Source of the DNA: a virus
Length of the DNA: 40,854 bases
Virus record (IMG/VR): IMGVR_UViG_3300048839_001612
Span: 1 to 40,854 of that record
Strand: one strand, 5' to 3'
The notes under the pieces are model-generated. The model was not told the origin of the DNA. It searched no databases and saw only the letters and a list, made by a program, of their open reading frames with translations. A program made the translations under genes and the position numbers. Positions 68 to 40,854 of this stretch are shown one piece after another; positions within the stretch are counted from its first letter, which is position 1; every line of letters starts with the position of its first letter.

Positions 68-3010
68 ATGCTCGACCTCAACGACGCCGAACCTGCACGA
101 CCGGCCGAGCGGTTCGATCTCGATGAAATCGTCGCGCGGCTGCGTGCGACCGCCGAGCATTGGGTGCCGCGACATTTCCCGAACGGCCGGCGGGTAGGCG
201 ATGAATGGCGGCTGGCCAACATCCGGGGCGATGCGCCGCGCAAGAACGGCTCCTGCGTGATTGCGCTCACCGGCGAGCACGCCGGCGACTGGATCGATTT
301 CGACGGCGGCCAGGGCGGCGGCCCCATCAACACGCTCGAACACGCGATACATCGGAGCGGGCGTGAGCTGATCAGTTATGCGGCCGAGCTGACCAGGACC
401 GGCCCGCAGCCGAAGCGGGGCGCCACCAGGCCCTCGTCCAAGCAGGCCGACCAGGCCCGCGAGATCGACCATATCCTCTCCAAGGCCGTGCCGCTCGCAG
501 GCACGTTGGGCAAACGCTATCTCGCGTCGCGCGGGCTGACGATTCCGGATTGTGCGGACCTTCTGTTCCACCCGGACCTAACACACTGGGAGAGCCGGCG
601 CGGCTTCCCCGGGCTCGTCGCGGTGGTGCGGGACGGCAGCGGCAATCGGATCGCGCTCCACCGCACCTATCTCGCCGACGATGGCGCCGCCAAAGCGCCG
701 GTCGATAACCCGCGCAAAATGCTGGCCTCGATCGCCGGCGGCGCCGTGCGCCTTGCCAATCTCACCGACGATCATGTCGTCGGACTCGCCGAAGGCATCG
801 AGACCGCGCTCTCGGTGATGGCAGCGTGTGCGCGCCTGCCGGTCTGGGCCACGCTGTCGACGTCCAACCTGGAACAGGTCGTTTTGCCCGCGGAAGTGAG
901 GAAGGTCGTGCTTCTGACCGACCACGACCCCTCCAACGCCGGCGCGCGCGCTGCCGCCGCCGCCGCCGCCCGACTGCACGCCGAGGGTCGGCGCGTCTTC
1001 ATCGCCATGCCGCCCAAGGAGGGCGACGACTTCAACGACCTGTTGATGCGCGAAGGCATTGATGCGGTGCGCCGAGTCGTTGAGTCAGCGGTCGAGTGGA
1101 ACGGCCAGGGCACCACAGAAAGCATGGCTCTGGTCGTTGACGGCGGCACCCACAGGCCGATCGGCCTGGCCTTGCCCGACCATGCACGACCCCAACTGCG
1201 CGCCGACAACGGCGATCTCGCCGGTGCGGTCTCGCAGGCCTGGCAAATCCTCCTCACCGCCAACAATCCGCCCTGGCTGTTCCGTGCCGCCGGATGTCCG
1301 ACCTGGGTGGTGCGCGACGATGACGGTTTGCCCATGGCGAGGCCGCTCACCGAGGATCGCTTGCGCCCGGTGCTCGCCCAGCTCGTCGACTGGCGAAAGA
1401 TCAATCGCAACGGCGAACTTATTCCCGCCCATCCACCCATGGCGGTGATCAAATCAATCCTCGCCACGCCCGATCCGGCGCTGCCAGTGCTGTCCGGCAT
1501 CGTCACGACGCCGGTGTTCGGCCGCGACGGCGAGCTCATCACCGAACCCGGCTACCATGCGCCCGCGCGCCTGCTCTACGACCCGCCCAAGGACTTTGTC
1601 CTGCCGCCTATAGCCGCCCGACCGACGCCGGCGAACATCACCGCCGCGCGATCATTATTGCTCGACGATCTCCTGGGGGAGTTTCCGTTCACCGGCGAAG
1701 CCGAACGTGCGCATGCGCTCGCGCTGCTGCTTGTTGGCTTCGTGCGCGCCATGATCGACGGGCCGACGCCGTTGCACCTGGTCGAGAAGCCGACCCAAGG
1801 CACCGGCGCAACCCTGATGGTGGATGTGATATCGCTGATCGCGACCGGCTGCCGCGCGAGCGTCATGGTCGAGGGCAGCGACGATGAGGAATGGCGCAAG
1901 CGCCTGACCGCCAAGCTGCGCCAGATCCCCTCCGTCGTGCTGATCGACAATCTGCGACGGCCGCTCGACTCCTCGGCGCTCGCGGCCGCGCTCACCGCGC
2001 CGTTCTGGGAAGATCGCGTCCTCGGCGTCTCGGAAACCACGCGGCTGCCGATCCGCTGCATCTGGATTGCCACCGGCAACAATGCCGAGTTCTCGGGTGA
2101 GATGGCGCGCCGTCTTGTGCGCATCCGTCTCGACGCCCGCGTCGACCAGCCCTGGCGCCGCAATGGCTTCCGCCATCCCGATCTCATTGGCTGGGTTCAT
2201 GCCAACCGGGCGGATCTTGTGGCCGCCTGTCTATCGCTCTGCCGCGGCTGGATCGCGGCCGGAATGCCACGCGGGAGCAAACACATCGGCAGCTTCGAAG
2301 CCTGGTCCGCCCTCATGGGCGGCCTGCTCGAGGCGATCGGAGTGCGAGGCTTCCTCGGCAACATCGACGAGATGCTCGAAGCCTCCGACGGCGAGGGCGC
2401 GGTCTGGCGCGTGTTCGTCGGTCAATGGTGGGATCGCTTCGGCACGGCAGAGGTTGGCACCAGCGGACTCTATGAGCTCGCCGTCAATTGCGAGCCTCCG
2501 CTGCCGCTCGGCACCGGCGGCGACCGATCCCAGCGCACCCGGCTCGGCAAAGCGCTCGTGCGCATGCGCGACCGGGTCTTCGACATCGCCGGACTGAAAG
2601 CGCGCATCCGGGCGATCGGGGTTTCCCATCAGGCGCGCCGCTGGCAGCTCACGCTCGAAGGGGAACATGGGGAACGTGGGGAACGTTTTTCGGAGTCGTC
2701 CGATTTCGGGAAAGGGGAACGTCAGGCTGCTTTAGAGCAACGTTCCCCTCAACATTCCCCGGCCTATCCCATTGATGGACAAGGCGTCGGGGAACGTGGG
2801 GAACCTGGGGAACGTTTTTCCGACCTACGCGCACGCGCGCGCGTACACAATAATAAAGAAGAGCAAACACGTTCCCCACGTTCGTCACGTTCCCAAAACG
2901 GTGTTGGTTCAGACGCTTACGACGGGGAACATGGCGGGGAACGTCATAACGCACGTTCCCCACGTTCCCCGCTGAATGAATCGCCCGATTGGCTGAAGGG
3001 GGTGCCGTGA
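68..3010 (+). CDS. Phage primase-helicase, Toprim domain (DUF7146/DUF927-like architecture)
   Basis: 980 residues, probably the replicative primase fused to a helicase-like ATPase. Residues about 15-110 resemble the N-terminal DNA-binding part of phage primases but show no Cys zinc ribbon. A Toprim core follows: AEGIETAL (241-248) supplies the catalytic Glu, TDHD (284-287) the metal-binding Asp pair, and DDFNDL (320-325) closes the domain. Residues about 520-700 look like an ATPase: PTQGTGATL (575-583) sits where a P-loop belongs but lacks the Lys, VVLIDN (623-628) fits Walker B, ATGNN (668-672) fits sensor 1 and an Arg pair follows at 681-682. The tail after about residue 865 is low complexity, rich in GER and RSP triplets, because it is encoded by a 9-bp DNA repeat array. 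Start chosen at the ATG 7 bp after the upstream stop. Toprim call is firm; the helicase activity is inferred. Confidence 0.85.
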   Translation: MLDLNDAEPARPAERFDLDEIVARLRATAEHWVPRHFPNGRRVGDEWRLANIRGDAPRKNGSCVIALTGEHAGDWIDFDGGQGGGPINTLEHAIHRSGRELISYAAELTRTGPQPKRGATRPSSKQADQAREIDHILSKAVPLAGTLGKRYLASRGLTIPDCADLLFHPDLTHWESRRGFPGLVAVVRDGSGNRIALHRTYLADDGAAKAPVDNPRKMLASIAGGAVRLANLTDDHVVGLAEGIETALSVMAACARLPVWATLSTSNLEQVVLPAEVRKVVLLTDHDPSNAGARAAAAAAARLHAEGRRVFIAMPPKEGDDFNDLLMREGIDAVRRVVESAVEWNGQGTTESMALVVDGGTHRPIGLALPDHARPQLRADNGDLAGAVSQAWQILLTANNPPWLFRAAGCPTWVVRDDDGLPMARPLTEDRLRPVLAQLVDWRKINRNGELIPAHPPMAVIKSILATPDPALPVLSGIVTTPVFGRDGELITEPGYHAPARLLYDPPKDFVLPPIAARPTPANITAARSLLLDDLLGEFPFTGEAERAHALALLLVGFVRAMIDGPTPLHLVEKPTQGTGATLMVDVISLIATGCRASVMVEGSDDEEWRKRLTAKLRQIPSVVLIDNLRRPLDSSALAAALTAPFWEDRVLGVSETTRLPIRCIWIATGNNAEFSGEMARRLVRIRLDARVDQPWRRNGFRHPDLIGWVHANRADLVAACLSLCRGWIAAGMPRGSKHIGSFEAWSALMGGLLEAIGVRGFLGNIDEMLEASDGEGAVWRVFVGQWWDRFGTAEVGTSGLYELAVNCEPPLPLGTGGDRSQRTRLGKALVRMRDRVFDIAGLKARIRAIGVSHQARRWQLTLEGEHGERGERFSESSDFGKGERQAALEQRSPQHSPAYPIDGQGVGERGEPGERFSDLRARARVHNNKEEQTRSPRSSRSQNGVGSDAYDGEHGGERHNARSPRSPLNESPDWLKGVP
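2660..2970. repeat. Array of about 16 copies of the 9-mer GGGGAACGT in both orientations (candidate iterons)
   Basis: Direct copies lie at 2660, 2669, 2678, 2714, 2789, 2798 (ACCT variant), 2807, 2924 (ACAT variant) and 2936. Inverted copies (ACGTTCCCC or one- to two-base variants) lie at 2740, 2752, 2869, 2878, 2887, 2953 and 2962. Several are perfect tandem blocks of three. Two direct blocks (2660-2686 and 2789-2815) are both followed by TTTTC. Between the direct and inverted halves sit an alternating GC/AC run (about 2830-2843) and an AT-rich stretch (2844-2868). All direct copies fall in one codon phase and inverted ones in another, so the open frame survives. Inference: replication origin or initiator binding region; a repeat-expanded protein tail is the alternative. 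Confidence 0.8.
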
Positions 3011-3053: not shown

Positions 3054-3371
3054 ATGAGCCGGCAGCGCCTTCCCGAACGCAGGCCAAGCGTCACGACCAC
3101 GTTCGTGCACGACTGCCGGTCCTATGCGGTGACGTTCGGCTTCGACCCGAGCACCGGCCGCATCGGCGAAGTGTTCACGCACGGCGCCAAGGTAGGCTCC
3201 GCCATGGACGGCATCCTCGACGATGCCTGTATCGCGCTGTCGCTTCTGCTGCAACATGGCGTCGAGCCCACGGCGCTTGCGACGAGTATGGGGCGGCTCG
3301 GCGACGGCAAGACGCCCGCGTCTGTCATTGGTGCACTCGCCGATCTCATCGCTCTCGAGGTGCAGCCGTGA
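3054..3371 (+). CDS. Small TSCPD-like domain protein
   Basis: 105 residues. The core from about residue 22 (SYAVTFGFDPSTGRIGEVF) through GAKVGSAMDGILDDACIALS to LLQHGVEPTALATSM has the layout of the TSCPD domain found at the C-terminus of class II ribonucleotide reductases and as free-standing small proteins in rhizobial phages. A GCGGAGG ribosome-binding site lies about 7 bases before the ATG. The gene follows the primase with a 43-bp gap and overlaps the start of the next small gene. A role in nucleotide metabolism or its regulation is only suggested by the family. No catalytic residues can be assigned. Confidence 0.65.
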   Translation: MSRQRLPERRPSVTTTFVHDCRSYAVTFGFDPSTGRIGEVFTHGAKVGSAMDGILDDACIALSLLLQHGVEPTALATSMGRLGDGKTPASVIGALADLIALEVQP

Positions 3372-3993: not shown

Positions 3994-4434
3994 CTATGCT
4001 TCAGCCGGCGGACGACGAACGTCGAGAACGTCAAGCACTGGGCATTCTGGTGCGGTAATTCCAGTGCAACGCGCAACTGTCTTCGCCAGCAACCGCTCCA
4101 GCTTGCGAAGGTCAGCTATCTTGGCGCGAATCTCGTCGAGATGATGCGAAGCGATTTCGCGAACTTCCCGACATGAGGCTTTTGCGGGGCCGCCGAGCCG
4201 AATCAGCGCGCGGACCTGATCGAGAGAAAATCCCAACTCCCGCGACCGGCGGATAAAGGCCAGGATACGAAGGTGAGTGGCGTCATAGACGCGACGCCCA
4301 CCGGCTGTGCGCGGCGGCGCCGGGAACATCTTGATCCGCTCGTAGTAGCGGATTGTCTCGATGTTCACGCCGGTAAGTTCCGACAAATTACCGATTGTTA
4401 ACGCTTCCGCTCGCGCATCTGTGATCGAGCCCAT
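3994..4434 (-). CDS. merR: MerR, Hg(II)-responsive transcriptional regulator
   Basis: 146 residues. N-terminal winged helix-turn-helix (about 12-82) with LTIGNLSELTGVNIETIRYY and the RRVYD wing typical of the MerR family. The long dimerisation helix follows, then the metal-binding loop. Three Cys (88, 123, 131) stand at the positions of Tn501 MerR Cys82, Cys117 and Cys126. The spacing between the last two is 8 rather than 9, as in several proteobacterial variants. Cys88 argues against a CueR copper sensor, which has Ser there. The protein should bind the divergent operator at 4446-4476, repressing merT-A without metal and activating with Hg(II), and repress itself. A Pb/Cd sensor is the alternative, but the adjoining merTPFA genes make mercury by far the likeliest. 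Confidence 0.93.
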   Translation of the reverse strand: MGSITDARAEALTIGNLSELTGVNIETIRYYERIKMFPAPPRTAGGRRVYDATHLRILAFIRRSRELGFSLDQVRALIRLGGPAKASCREVREIASHHLDEIRAKIADLRKLERLLAKTVARCTGITAPECPVLDVLDVRRPPAEA

Positions 4435-4445
4435 GGTGACCGGCC

Positions 4446-4476
4446 TTGCTCCTGTAGTGACTACAGGAAGTATACC
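4446..4476 (+). promoter_or_regulatory. merT promoter with MerR operator
   Basis: A -35 box TTGCTC (4446-4451) and a -10 box TATACC (4471-4476) are separated by 19 bp, the over-long spacer that MerR-family activators untwist. Centred in the spacer is a perfect dyad, CCTGTAGT and ACTACAGG around a single G (4451-4467). It lies between the divergent merR (start 4434) and merT (start 4503), so one operator can serve both. Geometry and context agree closely with known mer operators. Confidence 0.9.
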
Positions 4477-4502
4477 GCCCGCGATCCAGAGAGGACAACG
4501 AA

Positions 4503-4916
4503 ATGAGCGAAACGCGCAGCGCCATGGGTTCTATTGCATTGAGCGATCGCCCTGCCAACGCCTCGCCCGGCAAGGGTCAAAAGCTGGCGGCGGCGGGCGG
4601 GATCATCGGTGCGCTCGCCGCATCGTCGTGCTGCATTTTGCCGGTCGTTCTCTTTAGCCTTGGTGTCAGTGGCGCATGGATTGGAAACTTCACGCAGCTT
4701 GCGCCCTATCAGCCGTATTTCATTGCGGCCACGCTCGCTTTCATCGGCACCGGCTATTGGTTGGTCTATCGCTCGTCAAAGGTCGCCTGTGCAGAGGGTG
4801 AGGCTTGCGCACGGCCATTGCCTAACAGATTCGTTAAGATCGCGCTCATTGCGGCGACCGTCATTGTTCTTGCCGCCTGGGCCTTCGACTATGTCGCCCC
4901 CTACGTGCTGTCCTAA
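4503..4916 (+). CDS. merT: MerT, mercuric ion transporter (inner membrane)
   Basis: 137 residues with three predicted membrane helices (about 27-58, 70-90, 109-134). The first carries the SSCCILP motif with vicinal Cys43-Cys44, which takes Hg(II) from MerP in the periplasm. The second pair, Cys96 and Cys102 (VACAEGEAC), lies in the loop between helices 2 and 3 and would pass Hg(II) to MerA. Length and topology are those of normal MerT; the N-terminal 25 residues are somewhat longer than in Tn501. A GAGAGGAC ribosome-binding site precedes the ATG. First gene of the Hg-induced operon; merP follows after 17 bp. Confidence 0.95.
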   Translation: MSETRSAMGSIALSDRPANASPGKGQKLAAAGGIIGALAASSCCILPVVLFSLGVSGAWIGNFTQLAPYQPYFIAATLAFIGTGYWLVYRSSKVACAEGEACARPLPNRFVKIALIAATVIVLAAWAFDYVAPYVLS

Positions 4917-4933
4917 CCAATGGAGCAAATCAA

Positions 4934-5218
4934 ATGATGAAGTACGTCATCCCTGTTACGCTCTCGCTCGGCATCATCGGTCCTTCGTCTGCTCGTGCAG
5001 CGGAAAAAACGGTGACGCTCGCGGTGCAGAACATGTACTGCGCCGCGTGCCCGCACACCGTTAAATCGAGCCTGCAATCCGTGCCGGGTGTCAAAGCGGT
5101 TTCGGTGTCATTCAAAAACAAGACTGCCATCGTGACCTTCGACGACGCAAAGACCAACGTGAAGGCGCTGACGACAGCGACGACGAACGCCGGCTATCCG
5201 TCCTCTCCGAAAGGCTGA
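4934..5218 (+). CDS. merP: MerP, periplasmic mercury-binding protein
   Basis: 94 residues. Residues 1-22 form a signal peptide ending SARA, with cleavage likely before AEKT. The mature 72 residues are a heavy-metal-associated (HMA) fold with NMYCAACPHTV, where Cys36 and Cys39 bind Hg(II); Tyr replaces the usual Thr before the first Cys. The end, NAGYPSSPKG, is the classic MerP C-terminus. Two consecutive ATG codons make 4934 or 4937 equally possible. It scavenges Hg(II) in the periplasm and delivers it to MerT or MerF. Spaced 7 bp from merF. Confidence 0.95.
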   Translation: MMKYVIPVTLSLGIIGPSSARAAEKTVTLAVQNMYCAACPHTVKSSLQSVPGVKAVSVSFKNKTAIVTFDDAKTNVKALTTATTNAGYPSSPKG

Positions 5219-5225
5219 GCCTCCG

Positions 5226-5477
5226 GTGAAAGCAGCCGGTACCACAATTGGAGCAGTGCTCGTTGGCGCCCTTGCGGTGGTTTGCTGCGCCACGCCAGCG
5301 ATTATTGCGGGCATCAGCGTGACGGCGCTCGCAGCTTGGCTCTCCTATTCGGGATACGTGCTGATCGCAGCCGTGCTGATTGCCGGTGCGGTCGGCTGCG
5401 TCCTGTGGCTCCGGCGTCGCGGCATCAATGCTCAAGCGTGCTGCGGGCCAGCAAAGAAGGCGTCAAATCATGAGTGA
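5226..5477 (+). CDS. merF: MerF, second mercury transporter
   Basis: 83 residues with GTG start. Two membrane helices (about 5-33 and 38-62) enclose the vicinal Cys20-Cys21 (VVCCATP); a second pair, Cys72-Cys73, lies in the cytoplasmic tail. This two-pair, two-helix design and length of about 80 residues define MerF. It adds a second import route beside MerT, supplying Hg(II) to MerA. Its last 8 bases overlap merA, implying translational coupling. Confidence 0.92.
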   Translation: MKAAGTTIGAVLVGALAVVCCATPAIIAGISVTALAAWLSYSGYVLIAAVLIAGAVGCVLWLRRRGINAQACCGPAKKASNHE

Positions 5478-6897
5478 CTGTTGCGCGTCTGGAAATCGCG
5501 GCAAGCAATTTGATCTCGCCGTCATCGGTGCGGGGTCGGCAGGCTTTTCGGCGGCGATCACTGCGGCAGAACAAGGTGCGCAGGTGGCTCTGATTGGTCA
5601 TGGCACTCTTGGCGGCACATGCGTCAACATCGGTTGCGTGCCGTCAAAAACACTAATCCGGGCCGCTGAGACACAGCATCAGGCCAGCGCCGCCGCGCGC
5701 TTCGCAGGCATCAGGGCCAAAGGGCAGGTGGGCGATTGGACAGCGACCGTCCAGCAGAAAGACGAGCTCGTTTCGAGCCTGCGCCAATCGAAATACGCCG
5801 ATCTTTTACCGGCTTATAACAACATCTCTTACGTCGAAGGGCAGGCCCGCCTTGCCGAAGGTGGCGTGGCCATCAATGGCGATCTGATCAAGGCGCCGCG
5901 CCTTATCATCGTCACGGGCGCACGGCCTGCAGTGCCCTCGATCCCCGGTCTTGATGCTGTCGAGTATCTGACAAGCACCACCGCGCTATCCCTTGAATGC
6001 CTCCCGAAGTCATTGCTTGTGATCGGCGGGGGTTACATCGGCGCTGAACTAGCGCAGATGTTTGCGCGCATGGGCGTCAAAGTCACAGTCGTTTGCCGCA
6101 GCCACCTGTTGCCGGCGGCGGAGCCGGAAATCTCGGATGCTCTGTCAGGCTATTTCCGAGACGAAGGCATCGCTCTTGAGTGCGGGGTCACTTACAAGCA
6201 GGCGCGGCAGACTGAAGCTGGAGCGGCTCTTGTCGTCACGCGCGAAGCTCGGGATACGACGCTGACAGCCGAGCGCATTTTAGTTGCGACGGGTCGCGCC
6301 CCCAATGTCGAGGGGCTTGGCTTGAGAGAAGCCAAGATCGCGCAAGCGGCAAACGGCAGCATTCAGGTGGACGATCGAATGCAGACCACGCGCCCTGGCG
6401 TGTATGCGGCGGGCGATGTCACCGGCCACGATCAATTCGTTTACATGGCTGCTTACGGTGCGAAGCTTGCGGCCAAGAACGCTCTCAACGGAAACAGCCT
6501 GCGCTATGACAACACGGCTATGCCGTCGGTCGTATTCACTGATCCGCAGGTGGCAAGCGTCGGGTTGACCGAAGGCGCGGCCCGAGCCGCCGGCCGTGAC
6601 GTGAGAGTGTCCGTGCTACCCCTCAGTGCCGTGCCGCGCGCATTGGCGGCGCGAGATACGCGCGGCCTCATCAAGCTTGTTGCCGACAGAAAGAACCGCA
6701 AACTCCTGGGCGCGCACATTCTCGCGCCCGAAGGAAGCGACAGCATTCAGACTGCGGCGCTCGCCATCCAGCAGGGTCTGACGACCAACGATCTTGCCGA
6801 CGCGATCTTTCCGTATCTCACAACCGTCGAAGGCTTGAAGCTTGCGGCATTGGGATTCGAGAAAGATGTCGCGAAACTGTCCTGCTGTGCCGGGTAG
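5470..6897 (+). CDS. merA: MerA, mercuric reductase (short form without NmerA domain)
   Basis: 475 residues from the ATG at 5470. It is an FAD- and NADPH-dependent flavoprotein of the disulfide oxidoreductase family that reduces Hg(II) to volatile Hg(0). FAD-binding VIGAGSAG starts near residue 18, and the redox-active pair Cys51/Cys56 lies in GGTCVNIGCVPSK. The NADPH motif GGGYIGAE is near 180, a second FAD contact VYAAGDV near 313, and the C-terminal vicinal Cys472-Cys473 (SCCAG) hands Hg(II) to the active site. The N-terminal HMA domain of Tn501 MerA is absent; only a stub with Cys4-Cys5 remains. An in-frame start at 5380 was rejected because it lies deep inside merF and adds no recognisable domain. 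Confidence 0.96.
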   Translation: MSDCCASGNRGKQFDLAVIGAGSAGFSAAITAAEQGAQVALIGHGTLGGTCVNIGCVPSKTLIRAAETQHQASAAARFAGIRAKGQVGDWTATVQQKDELVSSLRQSKYADLLPAYNNISYVEGQARLAEGGVAINGDLIKAPRLIIVTGARPAVPSIPGLDAVEYLTSTTALSLECLPKSLLVIGGGYIGAELAQMFARMGVKVTVVCRSHLLPAAEPEISDALSGYFRDEGIALECGVTYKQARQTEAGAALVVTREARDTTLTAERILVATGRAPNVEGLGLREAKIAQAANGSIQVDDRMQTTRPGVYAAGDVTGHDQFVYMAAYGAKLAAKNALNGNSLRYDNTAMPSVVFTDPQVASVGLTEGAARAAGRDVRVSVLPLSAVPRALAARDTRGLIKLVADRKNRKLLGAHILAPEGSDSIQTAALAIQQGLTTNDLADAIFPYLTTVEGLKLAALGFEKDVAKLSCCAG

Positions 6898-6901
6898 TTG
6901 A

Positions 6902-7288
6902 ATGAACGTTGCAGCCCAATCCGCGAGGGACTGGCTCGGTAAGGCCCATACCAGCATCATCGCGTGGTGGCTCCCTAAAGGTGCCGTAGTCGCTGCGTTG
7001 TTCGCCCCGGTGTCGGCACGCGCGGCCGTTTGGTCCGCTGCGCTCATTTGGATGGGCACAGCGTGCATCCTCAATGCAAAGCGTTGCGGGCGCACGCACT
7101 GCCGCTACACGGGACCGTACTATCTCGCCATGATCCTTCCTGTGCTTGTGCTTGCATCCGGCCTCGCGTCAGCAAACTTCTACGGTTGGCTCGCGCTTGC
7201 CGCTTTGATCGTCGGTGGCGGCTGGATCATTTGGTGGGCTACGGAACAAGCGTGGGGCGATTCTCGTAGTGCTAAGGATTGCTTCTAG
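6902..7288 (+). CDS. Small Cys-containing membrane protein of the mer operon, function unknown
   Basis: 128 residues, starting 4 bp after the merA stop, so surely in the same transcript. Three or four hydrophobic stretches are visible (about 26-38, 41-57, 73-90, 93-112). Between the second and third is WMGTACILNAKRCGRTHC, giving Cys55, Cys62 and Cys67 plus His66, followed by YTGPYYLAM. A metal- or thiol-binding loop at the membrane is plausible, and the position suggests a job in mercury handling. It is not MerC, MerE, MerG or MerB by sequence. I recognise the motif as one seen near mer genes in other proteobacteria but know no assigned function. Confidence 0.8.
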   Translation: MNVAAQSARDWLGKAHTSIIAWWLPKGAVVAALFAPVSARAAVWSAALIWMGTACILNAKRCGRTHCRYTGPYYLAMILPVLVLASGLASANFYGWLALAALIVGGGWIIWWATEQAWGDSRSAKDCF

Positions 7289-7715: not shown

Positions 7716-9107
7716 ATGAAACCGCGACTGCCCGACGCGGTCGAGCATTGGCCGCTCGATCGGCTGAGCCCGTACGCGCGCAATGCCCGGACTCACGACG
7801 ACGACCAGGTGGCGCAGATCGCAGCCTCGATCGTCGAATTCGGCTGGACCAATCCGATCCTGGTCGATGCGGAGGGCGGCATCGTTGCCGGCCACGGGCG
7901 GCTCCTTGCCGCACACAAGCTCGGCCTCGACACAGTCCCGGTGGTCGTCCTCGGTCACATCACACCGGCCCAGCGGCGCGCTTACGTCATCGCCGATAAC
8001 AAGCTCGCGCTCAATGCCGGCTGGAACGAGGAACTGCTCGCAGCCGAGCTGCATGCGCTGAATGGCGACGGCTTCGACCTTGCGCTCACCGGCTTCTCGG
8101 AGACCGAGCTCGATGCGCTCCTGGCGCCGCTCGGCGAGGAGACGGATGCCGCGGACGGTGTCGGCGAGGACGCTGCAGACGAGATGCCGGCACCGCCACG
8201 CGAGCCAATCTCGCGCGCGGGCGATCTCTGGCTGATCGGCAATCACCGCCTGCTGTGCGGCGATGGCACCGACCCTGCGGCCGTGGCGCGCGTCATGAAC
8301 GGCGAGCGCGCCGCGCTCGTCTTCACGTCGCCGCCCTACGGTAATCAGCGCGACTACACGACCGGCGGCGTGGGCGATTGGGACACGCTGATGCGCGGCG
8401 TGTTCGCCGAGCTGCCGGTCACGGAGGCCGCTCAGGTTCTGATCAATCTCGGTCTCATTCACCGGGACAACGAATGGCAGCCCTATTGGCAAGCCTGGCT
8501 CGATTGGATGCGCGAGCAGGGCTGGCGCCGCTTCGGCTTCTACGTCTGGGACCAGGGACCGGGATTGCCAGGCGATTGGAACGGACGCCTGGCGCCGGCT
8601 TTCGAGTTCGTCTTTCACTTCAATCGCAAGGCCCGCAAGCCGAACAAGATCGTGCCCTGCAAATGGGCCGGCCACGTCAACGACACGCATGGCGGCATCC
8701 GCCACAAGGACGGGCATGTCGGCGAGTGGACGCATGCCGGACAGGGCGTCCAGGACACGCGCATCCCGGACAACGTCATCCGCATCACGCGGCACAAGGC
8801 GCGCGGCATCGAGACCGAGCACCCCGCGGTTTTCCCGGTCGCGCTGCCGGAATTCGTGATGCGCGCCTACAGCAACGAACGGGACATCGTCTATGAGCCG
8901 TTCGCCGGCTCGGGCACCGCCATCATCGCGGCGGAACGCGCCGGCCGGCGCATGAGGGCAATCGAGATCGCGCCCGAATACGTCGATGTCACGCTGCGCC
9001 GATGGCGCAAGCTCTTCCCTGACCAGCCAGTGAAACTCGATGGCGAAGGCCAAACCTTCGAAGCGGTCGCGCGTCAGCGTGGGGTCGCAATCCCAGCCGA
9101 CGACTGA
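7716..9107 (+). CDS. ParB-like N-terminal domain/DNA methyltransferase fusion (TSPPY type)
   Basis: 463 residues. Residues about 8-110 form a ParB/Srx-like domain with GGIVAGHGRLLAA (54-66) and the typical IADNKLALNAGW. Residues 165-435 are an S-adenosylmethionine-dependent methyltransferase. HRLLCGDG (178-185) opens it, the catalytic motif IV is TSPPYG (204-209), and the AdoMet motif I, FAGSG (396-400), comes last, which is the beta-class order. TSPPY is more usual for N4-cytosine enzymes, so N4-methylcytosine is the likelier product. Phage enzymes of this type usually act without a partner nuclease and may protect phage DNA; no endonuclease is seen nearby. It overlaps its paralogue by 68 bp. 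The ParB domain here does not imply partitioning. Confidence 0.9.
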   Translation: MKPRLPDAVEHWPLDRLSPYARNARTHDDDQVAQIAASIVEFGWTNPILVDAEGGIVAGHGRLLAAHKLGLDTVPVVVLGHITPAQRRAYVIADNKLALNAGWNEELLAAELHALNGDGFDLALTGFSETELDALLAPLGEETDAADGVGEDAADEMPAPPREPISRAGDLWLIGNHRLLCGDGTDPAAVARVMNGERAALVFTSPPYGNQRDYTTGGVGDWDTLMRGVFAELPVTEAAQVLINLGLIHRDNEWQPYWQAWLDWMREQGWRRFGFYVWDQGPGLPGDWNGRLAPAFEFVFHFNRKARKPNKIVPCKWAGHVNDTHGGIRHKDGHVGEWTHAGQGVQDTRIPDNVIRITRHKARGIETEHPAVFPVALPEFVMRAYSNERDIVYEPFAGSGTAIIAAERAGRRMRAIEIAPEYVDVTLRRWRKLFPDQPVKLDGEGQTFEAVARQRGVAIPADD

Positions 9108-10338
9108 GCCACTGCAAGTTGAGAGCTGGCCGATCGAGCGGCTCCTGCCGTATGCGGCGAACGCTCGAACGCATCCCGAAGAGCAGGTCGCACAGATCGC
9201 CGGCTCGATCGCGGAGTTTGGGTTCAACGTACCGTGCCTTGTGGACGAGCGCGGCGTCTTGGTCGCGGGTCATGGCCGCGTGCTTGGCGCGATGCGGCTC
9301 GGGTTGCAGCAGGTCCCGGTGATCCGGCTCGGGCACCTGACCGACGCCCAGGCGCGCGCGTTCCGGCTCGCCGATAACCGCATCGCGCTTAATGCCGGCT
9401 GGGATGATGCGCTCCTGTCCGCGGAGCTTGAGCGGCTGAAGGAGGACGGCGTCAACCTCGAGCTGTTGGGCTTTGCCGAGGACGAACTCGACCGGCTGCT
9501 CGACGCGCTCGACGCAGGCGGAGCATCCGAGGAAGAGGAAGACGTTCCCGAACCACCGACGCAAGCCGTCACCCGTCCGGGTGATCTTTGGTTGCTTGGA
9601 TCGCACCGTCTTCTGTGTGGCGATGCCACCGTCGCAACCGATGTCGAGCGGCTACTCGATGGGGCGCGACCGCACCTGATGGTGACCGACCCGCCTTACG
9701 GGGTCGATTACGATCCCAACTGGCGAGTCGAGTCCGGTGTTTCCTCGACCGCGCGGCCTGGAAAGGTCAACAACGACGACCGCGCCGATTGGCGCGAGGC
9801 CTGGAGCCTGTTTCCCGGTGATGTCGCTTACGTCTGGCACTCCGGGATCCACGCACGGACGGTCGCGGAGAGTCTCGATGCTTGCGGCCTCCTGATCAGG
9901 GCGCAGATCGTATGGGCCAAGCCACGCCTGGTGCTCTCCCGCGGAGATTACCACTGGCAGCATGAACCGTGCTTCTACGCAGTGCGCAAGGGAGCGAGCG
10001 GCCACTGGCAGGGCGCGCGCGACCAAACCACGTTATGGACCATCGCCACCGGCGAGAACGACGAGGCGACCGAGCACGGAACGCAGAAGCCGGTCGAGTG
10101 CATGCGCCGGCCGCTCGTCAACAACAGCGCGAAGGGCGATCTCGTCTATGAGCCCTTCGCCGGATCGGGTTCGACACTGATCGCTGCCGCGTCCGTCGGC
10201 CGCGTTTGCCTCGCCATAGAAATCGACCCGCGCTATTGCGACGTTACTATCGAGCGCTGGCAGCGCCACACCGGGAAAGCGGCATCACTCGCAAGCGATG
10301 GGCGGGGCTTTGATGAGGTGAAGGGCGAGCGATTGTAG
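9040..10338 (+). CDS. ParB-like N-terminal domain/DNA methyltransferase fusion (DPPY type)
   Basis: 432 residues, paralogous to the upstream gene along its whole length but read in a different frame across the 68-bp overlap. ParB-like domain at about 27-125 (RGVLVAGHGRVLGA, LADNRIALNAGW). An acidic linker SEEEEDVPEPP follows. The methyltransferase has HRLLCGDA (189-196), motif IV DPPYGVDYDP (217-226) and FAGSG (373-377). DPPY is typical of N6-adenine enzymes, so the tandem pair may modify two different bases or sites. Start ATG at 9040 gives a basic leader (AKAKPSKRSR); a later in-frame start is possible and would shorten the overlap. Followed by a strong hairpin. Confidence 0.9.
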   Translation: MAKAKPSKRSRVSVGSQSQPTTEPLQVESWPIERLLPYAANARTHPEEQVAQIAGSIAEFGFNVPCLVDERGVLVAGHGRVLGAMRLGLQQVPVIRLGHLTDAQARAFRLADNRIALNAGWDDALLSAELERLKEDGVNLELLGFAEDELDRLLDALDAGGASEEEEDVPEPPTQAVTRPGDLWLLGSHRLLCGDATVATDVERLLDGARPHLMVTDPPYGVDYDPNWRVESGVSSTARPGKVNNDDRADWREAWSLFPGDVAYVWHSGIHARTVAESLDACGLLIRAQIVWAKPRLVLSRGDYHWQHEPCFYAVRKGASGHWQGARDQTTLWTIATGENDEATEHGTQKPVECMRRPLVNNSAKGDLVYEPFAGSGSTLIAAASVGRVCLAIEIDPRYCDVTIERWQRHTGKAASLASDGRGFDEVKGERL

Positions 10339-33919: not shown

Positions 33920-34309
33920 ATGCTGATGTTCGTTCTCGCGGCCGCGACCTTCGTCGCGGTCTACTGGTTCTGGATTCGCCCCGTCCTGAAATCGCGGCCT
34001 GCCCTCCGCGAACTTTATGAGCAGGAGGAGAGCCTCTTCACCGCCGTGCGCGAGAAGTTCGCCGGCATCAAGCAGAAGCTCTCGTCCGCTATCGTGGTCG
34101 CGGCGAGCGTCGCGGTGAGCGGATACGACTTCATCGCTCCGATCGCGAGCGGCGTCGACGTGAGCTCGATCGCCGCGCAGGTGCCGTCCTGGGCATGGCC
34201 GCTGGTCCTGATCACTGTGACGGCGCTCTTCCAGTTCCTGCGCAACCTCGCGGACAAGCGACACAAGGCTGAACTCGTCGAGGATCCTGCGTCGGCCCAG
34301 GAGGGCTAG
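33920..34309 (+). CDS. Small membrane protein of the lysis cassette
   Basis: 129 residues with AAGGAG upstream. An N-terminal hydrophobic helix (about 2-20, LMFVLAAATFVAVYWFW), a charged helical middle (about 28-55), a weaker hydrophobic stretch (57-80) and a second strong helix (about 90-108, WAWPLVLITVTALFQFL) are seen. A holin, antiholin or spanin-like role is possible from its place between endolysin and holin. I recognise no family. Confidence 0.7.
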   Translation: MLMFVLAAATFVAVYWFWIRPVLKSRPALRELYEQEESLFTAVREKFAGIKQKLSSAIVVAASVAVSGYDFIAPIASGVDVSSIAAQVPSWAWPLVLITVTALFQFLRNLADKRHKAELVEDPASAQEG

Positions 34310-34311
34310 CC

Positions 34312-34701
34312 ATGTGGACTTGGCTCGCGAGCCTCATTGGCGGCCCGGTGATCACCGGCCTGATCAACGCCTACAAGACAAAACTCGACGCCGCGAACAC
34401 GCAGGATCGGATCGCAGCCGATCTCGCGGCGAAGGAGATCGCAGCCGAAATTGAAGCTCGCAAGCAAGCTTCCGCCATCATCATCGCCGAGCAGGGACGC
34501 TGGTACACGGCGATCATCCGTCCGCTGCTCGCGTTGCCCATCATCATCTATCTCTGGAAGGTGATCGTCTGGGACAAGGTGCTGGGCCTGGGCACCACCG
34601 ATCCCATCACCGGAATGATCGCGGATTGGGTCGGCACGATCCTGACCGCGTATGTCGGTGGTCGATCCATCGAAAAGGTCGCGCGCATCCTGCGCCGGTA
34701 G
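34312..34701 (+). CDS. 3-TM holin (GTA-type)
   Basis: 129 residues, 2 bp after the previous stop. An amphipathic N-terminus with a first hydrophobic segment (3-20), a charged Ala/Glu/Lys helix (about 22-60), then WYTAIIRPLLALPIIIYLWK and VIVWDKVLGLGTTDPITGMI, and a final membrane segment with GGRSIEKVARILRR. This is the layout of the 3-TM holins used for release of gene transfer agents. It should form the pores that let the endolysin reach the wall and set lysis time. Confidence 0.85.
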   Translation: MWTWLASLIGGPVITGLINAYKTKLDAANTQDRIAADLAAKEIAAEIEARKQASAIIIAEQGRWYTAIIRPLLALPIIIYLWKVIVWDKVLGLGTTDPITGMIADWVGTILTAYVGGRSIEKVARILRR

Positions 34702-34736
34702 CGGCACTGCTTTCCCCAACCGGGAATCCCCATTAA

Positions 34737-35087
34737 ATGCCGAATAGACTGGACGAGATCAGCCGAGTCATCGGCAACATCGAGGCCGAGGTGCGCAATC
34801 TTTCCGCATCGGTCGCGGACGTGCGCCGCTCGGCTGCGGAGCAGCACCGCGAAAACCGCGAAAAGCTCGAAAGCATCAGCCAGCGCGTCGAGAAGATCGA
34901 GGCCGACATGAAGCCGCTTGGAAGGACCGTTGCGACGATGGAGCCGATCGTTGCCGGCTACGCAGTGACGCGCTGGAAGATCGCCGGAGCCTTTGCGCTT
35001 GGCACCAGCATCATTACCGCGCTCGGGTGGGTTGTTTCCTTGTTCGCCGGCAAGATCGTAACTTGGGTCGTCTCATTGTTCCGGTGA
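34737..35087 (+). CDS. Coiled-coil membrane protein at the end of the lysis cassette
   Basis: 116 residues. Residues 1-60 form a charged coiled coil (RLDEISRVIGNIEAEVRNLS, REKLESISQRVEKIEADMK), followed by a membrane stretch or hairpin (about 81-115, KIAGAFALGTSIITALGWVV). The design resembles DUF1515-like and other phage proteins that accompany holins. Function unknown; an accessory lysis or superinfection-exclusion role is possible. It is the last phage gene, ending 14 bp from the convergent xfp gene. Confidence 0.7.
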   Translation: MPNRLDEISRVIGNIEAEVRNLSASVADVRRSAAEQHRENREKLESISQRVEKIEADMKPLGRTVATMEPIVAGYAVTRWKIAGAFALGTSIITALGWVVSLFAGKIVTWVVSLFR

Positions 35088-35101
35088 GTGCGCTTCTCCG
35101 C

Positions 35102-37480
35102 TTACAAGGGTGCCCACCGCCAATCGCGCACCTCGGGCAGATCCTGTCCCGTGATGCGGATGTGTCGATGATGTTCCTCCAGCATTTTCTTCATAAGGTC
35201 GCGAAGGGACTGTGACGCCGAGTTCGATAGCTGCAAATATTTCAAGACGTCGCAAACCAGATGGAATCGATCCAGACGGTTCAAGACTGTCATATCGAAC
35301 GGGGTGGTGGTTGTGCCCTCTTCGATGAACCCTCTGACATGGAAATTCGCATGGTTGGCGCGCCTGTAGGTCAACCGATGAATCGTTGCAGGATAGCCGT
35401 GATAGGCAAATACGACCGGGCGACTTGCAGTGAACAGCTGATCGAAGTCGGGGTCGGAGAGGCCATGCGGGTGCACCGTATTCGGCTGCAAGGTCATCAG
35501 ATCGACGACGTTCAACATCCTGATTTTCAGTTCGGGCAGATGCTCTTTAAGGATGGCGATGGCCGCAATTACTTCTAGTGTTGGCACATCCCCCGCGCCG
35601 GCCAAAACAATGTCTGGTTCCCCATTCTGTTCGTTAGATGCCCAAGCCCATTTTCCGATACCGCGTTTGCAGTGCGCTTCCGCTTCATTGTAGTCGAGCC
35701 ATTGCAGCCCCGGCTGCTTGCCTGCAACGATGATGTTGATCCGATTCCATGTACCAAGTACGTGGTGAGCAGTCGCGAGCAGCGTGTTGGCGTCCGGCGG
35801 CAAATATACTCGAACGATGTCAGCCTTCTTATTCAGCGCAACATCGATGAAGCCCGGATCCTGATGGCTGAAGCCGTTGTGATCCTGTCGCCAGACGTGA
35901 CTTGTCAGCAGATAGTTCAGCGACGCCACCGGCTTCCGCCACGGTAGCCTTCGACTGGCATCGAGCCACTTGGCGTGCTGGTTGAACATCGAGTCGACGA
36001 TGTGAATGAACGCCTCGTAACACGAGAATAAGCCGTGGCGACCTGTCAGCAGATACCCTTCAAGCCATCCTTGGCAGGTGTGCTCGGACAGGATTTCAAG
36101 CACGCGCCCATCTCTCGAAAGAGTCGTATCGTCGGGCAGCAACTCGGCCACCCAGCTGCGATTGGTAGCCTCGATGACCGCGTCTAGACGATTGGAAGAG
36201 GTCTCGTCAGGGCCTACGAGTCGAAAAATGTTCTTGTTTTTTTCGTTGCGGGCGACCTCAGCCAAAAGCTGACCCAGCACCTTCGTCGGTTCCGCAACGG
36301 CCGAGCCCGGTGAAGAACAAGCTACTTCGAATTCACGCGCGGGTGGCAGATCGAGCGGACGCCTGAGGAGGCCACCGTTGGCATGAGGGTTCGAGCCCAT
36401 TCGACGCGATCCCGAAGGGGCCGCGGATCGCACTGCCGCAACCGGAGACCCACGCTCATCGAATAGCTCTTTCGGCCGATAGCTCCGAAGCCATGCTTCG
36501 AGCATCCTGAGGTGCTCTGGTGATTTCTCCAGACCTGCGAGCGGAACCTGGTGTGATCGCCAGGAGCCTTCTGTCTTCAGTCCGTCAACGACCTTTGGTC
36601 CAGTCCATCCTTTCGGGCTCCGCAGAACGATCATTGGCCAAGTCGGCCGCTCTCCTCTCTCGTGTTCCTTGTCGTAGTCCTGAATGCTCCGAATTCGATC
36701 GAACGCTTCCTCCACTGCGGCCGCCATCTTGCGGTGCATTCGTGCAGGATCAGAGCCCTCGACGAAAATCGGCTCGTGACCATAGCCGCGCAGGAGGCTT
36801 CGTAGTTCTGGTTTGGGGATGCGAGCAAGGATCGTCGGGTTAGCGATCTTGTAGCCGTTGAGGTGGAGAATCGGCAGAACCGCACCGTCGCGACTAGGGT
36901 TCAGAAACTTGTTTGAATGCCATGCGGCAGCCAGCGGACCGGTTTCGGCTTCACCGTCGCCTATGACACATGCGACGACAAGATCAGGATTGTCGAAGGC
37001 GGCTCCATAAGCATGCGACAGGGCGTAGCCAAGTTCACCTCCCTCATGGATCGAGCCTGGAACGTCCGGCGCTGCGTGGCTCGGGATCCCGCCCGGGAAT
37101 GAGAACTGACGAACCAACGTCTTCAGTCCATTGTCATCCATCGGCACATCTGGATAAATCTCGGAATAGCTTCCTTCCAAATAGCTGTTCGCGACCATCG
37201 CAGGTCCGCCATGTCCGGGACCGCAAATGAAGATCATGTCGATGTCGCGAGTTCGGATGATACGATTGAGATGAGCGTAGATGAAGTTCAAGCCCGGGGT
37301 TGTCCCCCAATGCCCCAATAAACGTGGCTTAACGTGCTCAATCCGTAACGCCTCTTTCAGCAAGGGATTGTCGAGGAGGTAGATTTGTCCAACGGATAGA
37401 AAGTTGGCCGCGCGCCAATAAGCGTCGATGTTGGCGAGCTCTTCAGGTGACAATTGAAATCCGGGATTGGTCTGGCTCAT
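35102..37480 (-). CDS. xfp: Phosphoketolase (xylulose-5-phosphate/fructose-6-phosphate)
   Basis: 792 residues from the ATG at 37480, chosen for AGAGAGG just upstream; a GTG at 37504 overlapping the ackA stop would add eight residues. The enzyme uses thiamine diphosphate to cleave xylulose 5-phosphate or fructose 6-phosphate with phosphate, giving acetyl phosphate. Signatures: [10 protein letters not shown] (56-65), ICGPGHGGP (85-93), [10 protein letters not shown] (173-182), [17 protein letters not shown], plus [20 protein letters not shown] and SHQDPGFID in the second half. Full length, with the usual PEVRDWRW end. Paired with ackA it yields ATP from sugar phosphates. No metabolic gene is missing within the pair. 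Its 3' end abuts the prophage. Confidence 0.96.
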
Positions 37481-37500
37481 CTTCGACCTCTCTGCACGCG

Positions 37501-38712
37501 TCACAGATGCGTGCGTCCATCTCCGGAGGGCGTCGTGCTAGCCGCAAGTAGGCGAACGACGTCGGAGGCTATCTGCTGTTCTTCATTAGCCGGGATGACA
37601 AGCACAGCCACGGCACTGTCAGTCGCGGAAATCGAGGTGGCGTTGGCGCCGTTGGCGGCGTGATCGAGTTTGACGCCTAGCCACCCGAGTCGCTCACATA
37701 TGCCAGCCCGCGTTCGGGGTTGATGCTCGCCGATCCCGCCTGTGAAGACGATTCCGTCCAACCCCTGCAACGACGTCGCCAACGCGGCCACGCTGCGGGA
37801 GATTTGGAATGCAAATGCTTCCAGTGCCTCCTTGGCCTCGGGCATCGTACTCTCCTGAAGGGTGCGGGCATCGCCGCTGATGCCCGACATGCCAAGGAGC
37901 CCTGAACGTTGATAGAGCAGAGCCTCGACTTCACTCACGCTCATCCCGCGCTCTACCAAAAGATAGAGGATCACGCCGGCGTCGAGAGCGCCGCATCGTG
38001 TGCTCATCGGCACGCCATCGAGCGTCGAGAATCCCATCGTGGTGTCCTTGCTTACGCCCGCTTCTAAAGCGCACAGGCTCGCGCCACTCCCCAAATGCGC
38101 GATGACGACCCGTCCGTGTGCCAGGCCAGGAGCTATCGACGGAAGAGCGCTCGCGATGTGAGAGTATGAAAGGCCGTGGAAACCATAGCGCCTGATGCCG
38201 GAATTGTGCAGGTCACGGGGGATTGCAAAGCGGCGTGCCGGGGGAATGAGCGTTCGATGGAAGGTCGTATCGAACGAAGCTGTCTGCCGCAGGAAGGGAT
38301 GCACCCGTCCGATCGCTTCGATAAGCCGTATGCTTTGTGGCTGATGAAGCGGGGCCAAGGGGACGAGCGATTTTATTCGATCCAGAACCTGCGGTGTGAT
38401 CTCCGCGGGGCCCGCAAAATAATCACCTCCGTGGACCACCCGGTGTCCCACGGCAACGAGGCCGCCGCCAACAGCCTCGCGTAGGACGCCAAGGGCCTCT
38501 ACGATCACACTATCCAAGTCTTCAGTAGGCGAGATGATCGGAAACGTGAGTTCGCCTCCTGTTGTGAGCGCAATACGCATCTCCGAGGGGCCGGTTTGCA
38601 ATTGAAGGAGAGCTTTCCCGAGACAGAAAGGTTGTGCCGAGCTGGGCTCGAACATCCCGAATTTGATCGTGGATGATCCGGAGTTGACGGTGAGTATGCA
38701 GTCGGGCGTCAC
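37501..38712 (-). CDS. ackA: Acetate kinase
   Basis: 403 residues from the GTG at 38712, which overlaps the previous stop (GTGA); a longer frame to 38889 overlaps the upstream gene and lacks family similarity. It converts acetyl phosphate plus ADP to acetate plus ATP. Motifs: [14 protein letters not shown] at the start, [59 protein letters not shown] and [10 protein letters not shown], all in order. Translationally coupled to both neighbours. The substrate acetyl phosphate is supplied by the adjoining phosphoketolase. Confidence 0.96.
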
Positions 38713-38969
38713 GCACCAAGGTCCCGCTTGCCAATGGCTCGCTGGGGCCGGAAGCCCATGTAAATCGCGACAGCCATCGATGCGGGACAGGACAGCAGCA
38801 GGACGACAACGAGCGCTGTCCACCAAGAGACGCCGAAGAAGAGCAATACCGCTCCACTCAAGATGAGCATCAGCGGCAGGCACGCCCAAACCAAGCGGTA
38901 GGATCCAAGGGGCAATCGGTTTCCCGGAGTGCGCTCAGATCCTGGAGAGGGAAGCGATCTCCTGCTCAT
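38709..38969 (-). CDS. Small two-helix membrane protein between copA and ackA
   Basis: 86 residues from the ATG at 38969, which has GGAGG 7 bases upstream on the minus strand; starts at 38981 and 39029 are possible but poorer. A Ser/Arg/Pro-rich leader (SRRSLPSPGSERTPGNRLP) precedes two hydrophobic helices (about 27-45, LVWACLPLMLILSGAVLLFF, and 49-69, TALVVVLLLSCPASMAVAIY). I recognise no characterised family. Its stop overlaps the ackA GTG. Operon placement suggests a link to the metal pump or to acetate/phosphoketolase metabolism; nothing in the sequence decides. Confidence 0.75.
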   Translation of the reverse strand: MSRRSLPSPGSERTPGNRLPLGSYRLVWACLPLMLILSGAVLLFFGVSWWTALVVVLLLSCPASMAVAIYMGFRPQRAIGKRDLGA

Positions 38970-39031
38970 CGAATCCTCCATCTCTCGTATGCGAAAACGT
39001 TGTCCTGTAAAGATGTCGATCGATTTCATAG

Positions 39032-40854
39032 CTACAATCGAGCTCGGCGGAGACGCAGCGCATTGCCGACTACACTTACCGAGGATAGCGCCATGGCGGC
39101 TGCGGCAATGATCGGCGAGAGGAGGATGCCGAAAAACGGATAGAGCACCCCGGCCGCGACCGGCACGCCGAGCGCGTTGTAAATGAAGGCGAAGAACAGG
39201 TTCTGGCGGATGTTCCTCATCGTCGCCTCCGAGAGGTGGCGCGCCCGCACGATCCCCATGAGGTCACCCTTGAGGAGCGTCACGCCGGCGCTCTCCATGG
39301 CGACATCGGTGCCGGTGCCCATGGCGATGCCGACATCGGCGGCCGCCAGTGCTGGGGCATCGTTGACGCCGTCGCCTGCCATCGCAACGACGCGGCCCTG
39401 GGCCTTGTAGCGCTGCACGACCGCGCTCTTCTGCTCGGGCAGCACTTCGGCCTCGACCTCCTCGATGCCGAGCTGGCGCGCGACCGCTTTCGCAGTCGTC
39501 CAGTTGTCACCGGTGAGCATGACCACCCGGATGCCGTCGACTTTAAGACCCCTCAGCGCCTCCGCTGTGCTCGGCTTGACCGGATCGGCTATCCCGAGCG
39601 CGCCGGCGACAGATCCATCAACGCTCATGAAGATTGCTGTGGCGCCGTCCTTGCGGAGTTCTTCTGCGCGAGCTGCCAACACGGCGACGTCGACACCCAA
39701 TTCTGAGAGGAACTTCGCGTTGCCGAGGGCGATGCGCTTACCCTCGACGTTCCCGAGCGCCCCCTTTCCTGTGGGTGAATCGAACTCGGAGACCTGTGCG
39801 GTTGCAATACCGCGCTCTTCAGCGGCGCGAACGATCGCTAAGGCCAGCGGATGCTCGCTCGCCCGCTCCACGCTCGCCGCGAGCCGCAGCACTTCCGTCT
39901 CCGTGTAGTTCGGCGCGGGCACGATAGCGGTGACTGCCGGCTTGCCCTCTGTCAGAGTGCCTGTCTTGTCGACCACCAGGGTGTCGACCTTTTCCATGTG
40001 CTCCAGTGCCTCGGCGTTCTTGATCAGCACGCCGGCCTGCGCACCGCGACCCACGCCCACCATGATGGACATGGGGGTCGCAAGGCCAAGCGCGCACGGG
40101 CAGGCGATGATGAGCACGGCGACTGCGGCGACGAGGCCGTAGGAGAACCGTGGCTCCGGCCCCCAGATGCCCCACGCCGCGAAGGCGAGAAGCGCCACCA
40201 CGATCACGGCCGGCACGAAGTAGCCAGAGACCTGGTCAGCGAGCCGCTGGATCGGCGCCCGGCTGCGCTGCGCATCCGCGACGAGCTGAACGATCTGCGA
40301 CAGCATGGTGTCGCGCCCGACCTTCTGGGCCTCGATGACAAGCGCTCCGCTCTGGTTCATGGTGCCGCCGATCACCCTCGCGCCGACCTCCTTTGTGACC
40401 GGCATCGACTCACCCGTGACCATCGACTCGTCGACAGCGCTGCGACCTTGGAGGACCGCGCCATCGACCGGCACCTTCTCGCCCGGCCGGACGCGCAGCC
40501 GGTCGTTGACGTGGACCTCGTCGAGCGGCACCTCCTCTTCGCTATCGTCGTCATTGACCCGGCGAGCGGTCTTCGGGGCGAGGTCGAGAAGCGCACGGAT
40601 GGCGCCGCTGGTCGTCTCTCGCGCCCGCAACTCGAGGACCTGCCCGAGCAGGACGAGGACGGTGATGACCGCCGCCGCCTCGAAGTAGACGGCAACCGCC
40701 CCCTCCGGACCCCGAAACGCGGCCGGATAGACGCCCGGCGCCAGCGTAGCGATGACGCTATAGACCCACGCGACGCCGGTCCCCATCGCGATCAGGGTGA
40801 ACATGTTCAGGTTGCGGCTCACGACCGACTGCCAGCCGCGGACGAAGAACGGCC
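39032..40854 (-). CDS. copA: Copper-exporting P1B-type ATPase (5' end outside window)
   Basis: At least 607 residues are present, the frame running off the right edge ([11 protein letters not shown] is the last readable upstream part). Key motifs are [10 protein letters not shown] (actuator domain), [11 protein letters not shown] (metal-binding CPC in the sixth helix), [11 protein letters not shown] with the phosphorylated Asp, SEHPLA, MLTGDN and [23 protein letters not shown] and [15 protein letters not shown] supply the Tyr-Asn and Met-Ser-Ser residues typical of Cu(I) pumps. N-terminal HMA or His-rich domains are not visible. It exports Cu(I) from the cytoplasm. First readable gene of the operon with ackA and xfp. 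Confidence 0.94.

Follow-up and report, generated by a model that had tools for sequence, protein, structure and literature searches.

Why should a gene for a primase carry a dense, two-orientation array of 9-bp repeats near its 3' end, all kept within an open reading frame? We analyzed this question in a 40,854-nt stretch of DNA (the window; IMG/VR virus record IMGVR_UViG_3300048839_001612, positions 1 to 40,854). The window encodes the small and large terminase subunits, portal, head protease, minor tail protein and tape measure, and its element is a siphophage-type prophage. From about 34300 to 40854, on the minus strand, genes of chromosomal type (phosphoketolase, acetate kinase, P-type ATPase) are found at lower GC, and the right part from about 34.3 kb is likely host DNA past the prophage end.

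Between 2660 and 2970 we counted 15 copies of GGGGAACGT on either strand with no more than one mismatch, while the other 40.5 kb contains five more. The resulting 20 matches in the whole window compare with a mean of 10.1 and a maximum of 17 in 100 dinucleotide shuffles. A 16th array copy (2878-2886) is degenerate, with two mismatches, and lies in register, so that an earlier note on this DNA was right to put about 16 copies in 310 bp within the primase gene. Copy counts and register checks placed the individual iterons as follows. Direct iterons 1-3, reading GGGGAACAT GGGGAACGT GGGGAACGT, occupy 2660-2686 on the plus strand, followed by direct iteron 4 (2714-2722, plus), inverted iteron 5 (2740-2748, minus) and inverted iteron 6 (2752-2760, minus, one mismatch). 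Then come a direct triplet, iterons 7-9 (2789-2815, plus), a 53-bp core (2816-2868), and an inverted triplet, iterons 10-12 (2869-2895, minus), whose middle copy is the degenerate one. Direct iterons 13 (2924-2932, plus, one mismatch) and 14 (2936-2944, plus) and inverted iterons 15-16 (2953-2970, minus) complete the array.

The order is thus >>> > << >>> [core] <<< >> <<, and not direct copies first, mixed copies in the middle and inverted copies last, as had been proposed. It follows that the array centres on a pair of facing triplets, one direct and one inverted, with the 53-bp core between them. The tandem triplets had also been called perfect; their 9-bp spacing is exact, but each contains one or two imperfect copies. 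The core, our proposed opening site, contains a 24-nt alternating purine-pyrimidine run (about 2826-2849) and an AT-rich half (about 2844-2868), the latter a feature of the window's clade, and its overall AT fraction is 0.49.

All 16 iteron copies are in frame within the initiator open reading frame (ORF) (68-3010, plus strand). As the earlier note stated, every copy keeps codon phase: phase 0 (GGG GAA CGT) for all direct copies and phase 2 (CGT TCC CC) for all inverted ones. Codon usage separates the iterons from the gene that holds them. The glycine codon GGG is used in 9/9 cases in the iterons versus 6/70 in the gene body, and the CGT codon in 11/11 versus 6/73. When codons that keep the amino acid were compared between the window and nine close relatives, synonymous differences amounted to 0-5% in the iterons and 23-46% in the rest of the gene. 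A conserved peptide with scrambled third positions would have pointed to selection on the protein only; we found the opposite, in that the iterons have frozen third positions in an otherwise variable gene. Furthermore, a change of the word affects the two orientations in complementary fashion, so that R is replaced by C in direct copies and by H in inverted ones. Across relatives the tail peptide passes from GER/RSP to GEC/HSP to GEG/PSQP, each pair being a single DNA word, uniform on both strands. As judged from these comparisons, selection on the array is acting on DNA.

To determine how widely the array is shared, we collected 44 IMG/VR loci, 77 GTDB loci and, by a second query, 80 more IMG/VR loci, the sets partly overlapping (loci are cited below by L numbers). 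The GTDB set includes full-length relatives in Jannaschia seosinensis CECT 7799, Shimia litoralis, Paracoccus limosus JCM 17370 and Tropicimonas isoalkanivorans DSM 19548, which are candidate cultured lysogens. Repetitiveness was scored by a de novo 9-mer count in the last 360 bp against control windows of the same gene. The 9-mer family of the tail was larger than in every control window of its own gene in 108 of 113 relatives, with mostly 10-16 copies versus at most 3-6 in the controls, so the clusters that the earlier note suggested seeking at the 3' ends of homologous primase genes are indeed present. The exceptions were mostly truncated, frameshifted or distant copies. About 20 consensus words were obtained at the 8-mer level after removal of one artefact, all of the form NNNYYCMCN; this form was partly imposed by the search pattern, and an unrestricted search returned the same words.

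Site order and distances were constant in 25 representatives except at the left end, giving a common layout of >>> [core] <<< plus flanking sites, with a mostly 53-62 bp alternating purine-pyrimidine core. The 95 unique cores are mostly 53, 56, 59 or 62 bp long and vary in 3-nt steps, and in 93 of them the two triplets keep codon phases (0,2). Their longest alternating purine-pyrimidine run has a median of 28 nt and exceeds composition-matched shuffles (p<0.05) in 95/95. The AT fraction of the relatives' cores ranges from 0.27 to 0.58, most of them not being AT-rich. Of the central element once described as an AT-rich segment beside an alternating run, it is therefore the run that is conserved and not the AT-richness. 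A sister family with 36-40% identity (L053/L220, L221, L222) keeps the facing triplets in a different codon phase, in which they read GNV and VPH. We also considered L117 as an array in shifted codon phase and rejected it, its motif register being ambiguous. GC skew rose across the array in 38 of 49 relatives, from -0.020 to 0.000, a consistent change but a small one, too weak to count. No direct DNA matches were found on plasmids.

The gene encodes a 980-aa primase-helicase initiator, identified by Pfam matches (DUF7146, E 1e-29; Toprim_3, E 2e-22), PHROG primase families, and an AF2 model searched with Foldseek. From the N terminus it comprises a DUF7146 domain (residues 128-229; 449-754), a Toprim_3 primase domain (residues 238-332; 779-1063), a D5/PriRep-like helicase region (residues 372-795; 1181-2452), a winged helix (residues 800-862; 2465-2653), the iteron-coded tail and a terminal W-L peptide, all on the plus strand. 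Pfam detected no family over the helicase or the winged helix in the 980-aa protein, and neither the helicase profile nor the winged helix found a significant match among PDB sequences; the fold search performed better. We modeled residues 372-866 with AF2 from an alignment of 44 sequences (pLDDT 83.8). The first Foldseek hit in the PDB was 7pds, the SaPI5 initiator PriRep1 with dsDNA (E 7.7e-7), followed by NrS-1, D5-family and AsfvPrimPol helicases, so that the region resembles SaPI5 PriRep1, the NrS-1 CTR and D5 in fold. The TM score of about 0.4 indicates a common helicase architecture and not a close match.

The Walker A segment (1787-1813, residues 574-582) follows E-K-P-T-x-G-T-G-A-T. 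K574 is present in all 183 aligned members, and A581 in all but one, which has G581; the family thus has an invariant lysine seven residues before the position of the Walker A lysine, which it lacks. Distant relatives (L053, L133-L135, L137-L139) have alanine together with the P-loop lysine, A-P-x-x-G-[ST]-G-K. Judging from this alignment, the Walker A lysine seems to have shifted seven residues upstream in the family; as the canonical lysine is absent, helicase activity is not assured.

The AF2 model ends in the winged helix, with a helix at residues 819-832 (2522-2563, plus strand) and a hairpin whose tip lies near residue 854, within the wing sequence GVSHQAR (residues 851-857; 2618-2638, plus strand). 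We propose that this domain binds the iterons, because covarying columns concentrate here. The earlier note had suggested binding assays with the N-terminal domain of the primase; covariation and the predicted fold point instead to the C-terminal winged helix at residues about 800-862. Beyond the array, the conserved peptide PDWLKGVP (2984-3007, plus strand) was recognized by comparison of relatives, and WL falls within the last nine residues in 169/177 of them.

We then compared the iteron bases with the protein columns in an unbiased scan (columns 1-865, 102 unique sequences). For base 7, columns 855, 854, 852 and 853 ranked first. Among the same 865 columns, the best were 856 for base 5 (normalised MI 0.95), 820 and 822 for base 4, 824 for base 3, and 828 for base 2. 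These best columns all lie in the helix or the wing of the predicted fold, whereas columns outside the winged-helix region score lower for every base. In the window, the putative recognition helix would thus pair R820 and Q822 with base 4, T824 with base 3 and K828 with base 2, while wing residues 852-855 track base 7 and residue 856 tracks base 5. The last correspondence held in 133/133 cases, T occurring with Ala or Ser856 (121) and C with Thr or Val856 (12).

The rules for bases 7, 4 and 3 were fixed before the 80 additional loci were fetched. After removal of duplicates with more than 98% identity, 29 new loci remained, several of which share clades with the training set. In these, the rules predicted base 7 in 28/29, base 4 in 28/28 and base 3 in 28/28. 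Taking the base from the nearest relative in helicase sequence instead gave the right answer in 14, 24 and 23 of 29, respectively. The sole miss for base 7 was L209, with wing GTLHG and base 7 = A. Exceptions in the training set known at the start were L085 and L120 for base 3 and L091 for base 4. A tree built from residues 1-795 (81 rows) requires at least 28 changes of the 8-base word and eleven of base 7. Independent contrasts of His854 against base 7 gave eight agreements, no disagreement and one case without difference (p=0.008).

The winged helix adjoins the array, so recombination would move both together. In line with this, base 7 was predicted by the masked winged-helix neighbour in 96/102 cases, versus 100/102 by the rule, which means that part of the association is physical linkage. 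Linkage alone, however, would not be expected to give a sharp peak on four wing residues.

The pair also seems to travel as a unit. Near-identical helicase bodies carry different winged-helix/array pairs (L057 versus L072; L093 versus L112, closely related loci with the iterons AGGTTCACA and AGGTTCCCC, respectively), and similar pairs are found on distant bodies (L075 and L101/L103). This suggests that the winged-helix domain and the candidate origin are replaced together as a cassette. Some loci (L013-L015, L064 and L122) have mixed arrays with two words, as would be expected during a switch of specificity. In L051 (1-1128), a single ORF tail contains a GGGGAACGT-type array and then a ACCCTCACG-type array, which looks like a fusion of two origin cassettes.

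What process, then, uses these sites? The analysis established the array, its selection at the DNA level, its conserved layout, the covariation of helix and wing with the iteron, and the helicase fold. The iteron word changes with the predicted DNA-gripping part of the protein, so the gene most likely encodes both an initiator and its start site. An iteron origin inside the primase gene, as the earlier note proposed, is the best-supported reading, given the frozen third positions and the presence of the array in nearly all relatives. We consider that the array is very probably the replication origin of the prophage, of the SaPI/P4-like iteron type, embedded in frame in its own initiator gene.

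From this we infer binding, opening, loading and a start of replication at the array. The C-terminal winged helix would recognize the 9-bp iteron. By analogy with SaPI/PICI Rep, the facing direct and inverted triplets would assemble two helicase complexes head to head, one on each side of the roughly 55-bp core. This tract, alternating purine-pyrimidine and in the window's clade also AT-rich, would melt and the helicase would load, after which the fused Toprim domain would prime. The protein-DNA pair would behave as a cassette in which both partners switch specificity together. The frame is probably kept open through the origin because the protein has to retain the conserved W-L peptide at its C terminus; that peptide is possibly a partner-binding motif, which would explain the open frame.

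The array might instead be a platform for the same winged helix that acts in autoregulation, copy control or segregation (an operator, incompatibility region or centromere), and the origin would then lie elsewhere. The evolution of binding sites is by itself silent on which process uses them, the additional sites flanking the facing triplets are reminiscent of control iterons, and P4 has a second iteron cluster (crr) near alpha besides ori. Nevertheless, it is the 3' end of the gene that carries the sites, and not its promoter; a conserved tract of 53-62 bp between facing triplets corresponds to the arrangement of PICI origins; the window contains no second cluster; and the protein is an initiator-type primase-helicase. 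We regard this platform as unlikely.

Two further readings do without a binding site, and we give each almost no credence. Selection might act on a disordered GER/RSP tail with a role in oligomerisation or DNA binding, in which case codon bias or slippage would have produced the repetition in the DNA as a by-product. In keeping with this, no copy is out of frame, spacings differ by multiples of three, and a conserved peptide ends the tail. This reading is already contradicted by the present data: the iteron codons are frozen and atypical for the gene, GER/RSP, GEC/HSP and GEG/PSQP differ exactly as one DNA word on two strands would, and the arrays of the sister family are translated in a different phase (GNV/VPH). 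The repeats could also be a selfish or neutral minisatellite homogenised by slippage or gene conversion. Tandem 9-bp units, the uniform change of many copies, and the intermediate two-variant arrays (L013-L015, L064) do look like concerted evolution. Yet copies dispersed in both orientations at conserved distances are not made by slippage, the array type is tied to specific amino acids of the neighbouring domain in independently changed lineages, and free variation of copy number or order among close relatives was not seen.

Returning to the origin reading, we compared the system with known iteron origins. In PICI origins, a putative melting region beside rep, at the 3' end of the initiator gene, is flanked by two sets of iterons (PMC6092414), and the C-terminal domain of SaPI/PICI Rep recognizes iterons next to rep (PMC7581432). 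The window system resembles these Rep-ori units (SaPI5 PriRep1, SaPIbov1 Rep, EcCICFT073 pri-rep-ori) in joining a primase to a D5/PriRep-type helicase fold with a C-terminal domain tied to the origin, and, in the window and its relatives, in having two iteron sets that flank one region; the comparison with SaPI Rep was made by fold search. Unlike theirs, which lies just downstream of rep, the candidate origin of the window lies inside the 3' end of the ORF, before the C-terminal peptide; the flanked region is alternating purine-pyrimidine (AT 0.49) and not AT-rich; and the primase is of the Toprim/DUF7146 type. With terminase, portal, protease and tape measure genes of its own, the element is not a satellite, unlike a PICI. 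In SCCmec, the isolated C-terminal domain of the D5-type helicase Cch2 binds repeats downstream of its gene (PMC7581432); there, however, the repeats are three, 5 nt long and intergenic, and the primase is separate.

The type 1 repeat of P4, TGTTCACC, fits NNNYYCMCN with A at base 7, whereas the window's own word differs (CGTTCCCC). The P4 repeats also occur in both orientations, some 9 bp apart, and crr lies directly 3' of alpha, but they form two separate clusters outside the gene. The end of alpha (...KQG...GDWLP) resembles the QG wing and W-L end of the window family, a likeness seen by eye; homology to alpha was tried and rejected, as hhalign gave a probability of 0.1% and no significant similarity. 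On the sequence pattern, the repeat type can be placed in a series NNNYYCMCN that would also accommodate the P4 type 1 repeat. Like the window system, lambda has iterons and an opening region inside the coding sequence of its own initiator, and extra iterons add residues to the O protein (PMC7466680). However, O is neither a primase nor a helicase, and lambda has four iterons beside an AT-rich tract in mid-gene, whereas the window family has facing sets at the 3' end. No homology of the initiator to lambda O emerged from Pfam and PHROG, in which its matches were to primase families only. By analogy, the window system would function as SaPI/P4 origins do, and its position is that of the lambda origin, but we assign it to none of these groups. 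A search of the open-access literature found no description of this primase-helicase family or its origin.

A SaPI/P4-like plan is thus proposed inside the initiator gene, here in prophages with full virion genes. A broader claim, whose chances we judge evenly balanced, is that these loci form a widespread alphaproteobacterial prophage replicon family. In it, binding domain and origin would make up a one-ORF cassette, exchangeable between lineages, with about 20 specificities set by a readable residue-to-base code, and the opening site would be a GC-rich alternating purine-pyrimidine (Z-DNA-prone) tract and not an AT-rich one. Whether such a tract can serve as an unwinding element is a question that the family poses. 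Because protein and site are adjacent and dozens of natural variants exist, the family offers a natural experiment on winged-helix DNA specificity, base by base. The variant set, in which half-switched arrays exist, also bears on how a replicon can change its origin type without dying in between.

Several observations concern the element and its genomic surroundings. The Pseudolabrys metagenome-assembled genome bin_2003 (GTDB) contains two full-length relatives, L063 and L065, and a third array (L242) at 1926276-1926577 whose opposite strand reads nearly identically to the window array. Among three genomes searched for the exact tandem dimer, only bin_2003 had it, in three clusters, two of which are the fetched homologues. 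The three co-resident arrays share the iteron word, which raises the question of cross-activation between prophages. In the window, a small ORF 3' of the primase gene (3054-3371) matches the TSCPD domain. A mercury-resistance-like module inside the prophage (3994-7288; MerR-type regulator, MerT, MerP-like protein and MerA-like flavin oxidoreductase) sits between a DUF6362 gene and the ParB-methylase genes, two consecutive overlapping genes (7716-10338) that each match ParB-like/DNA methyltransferase families.
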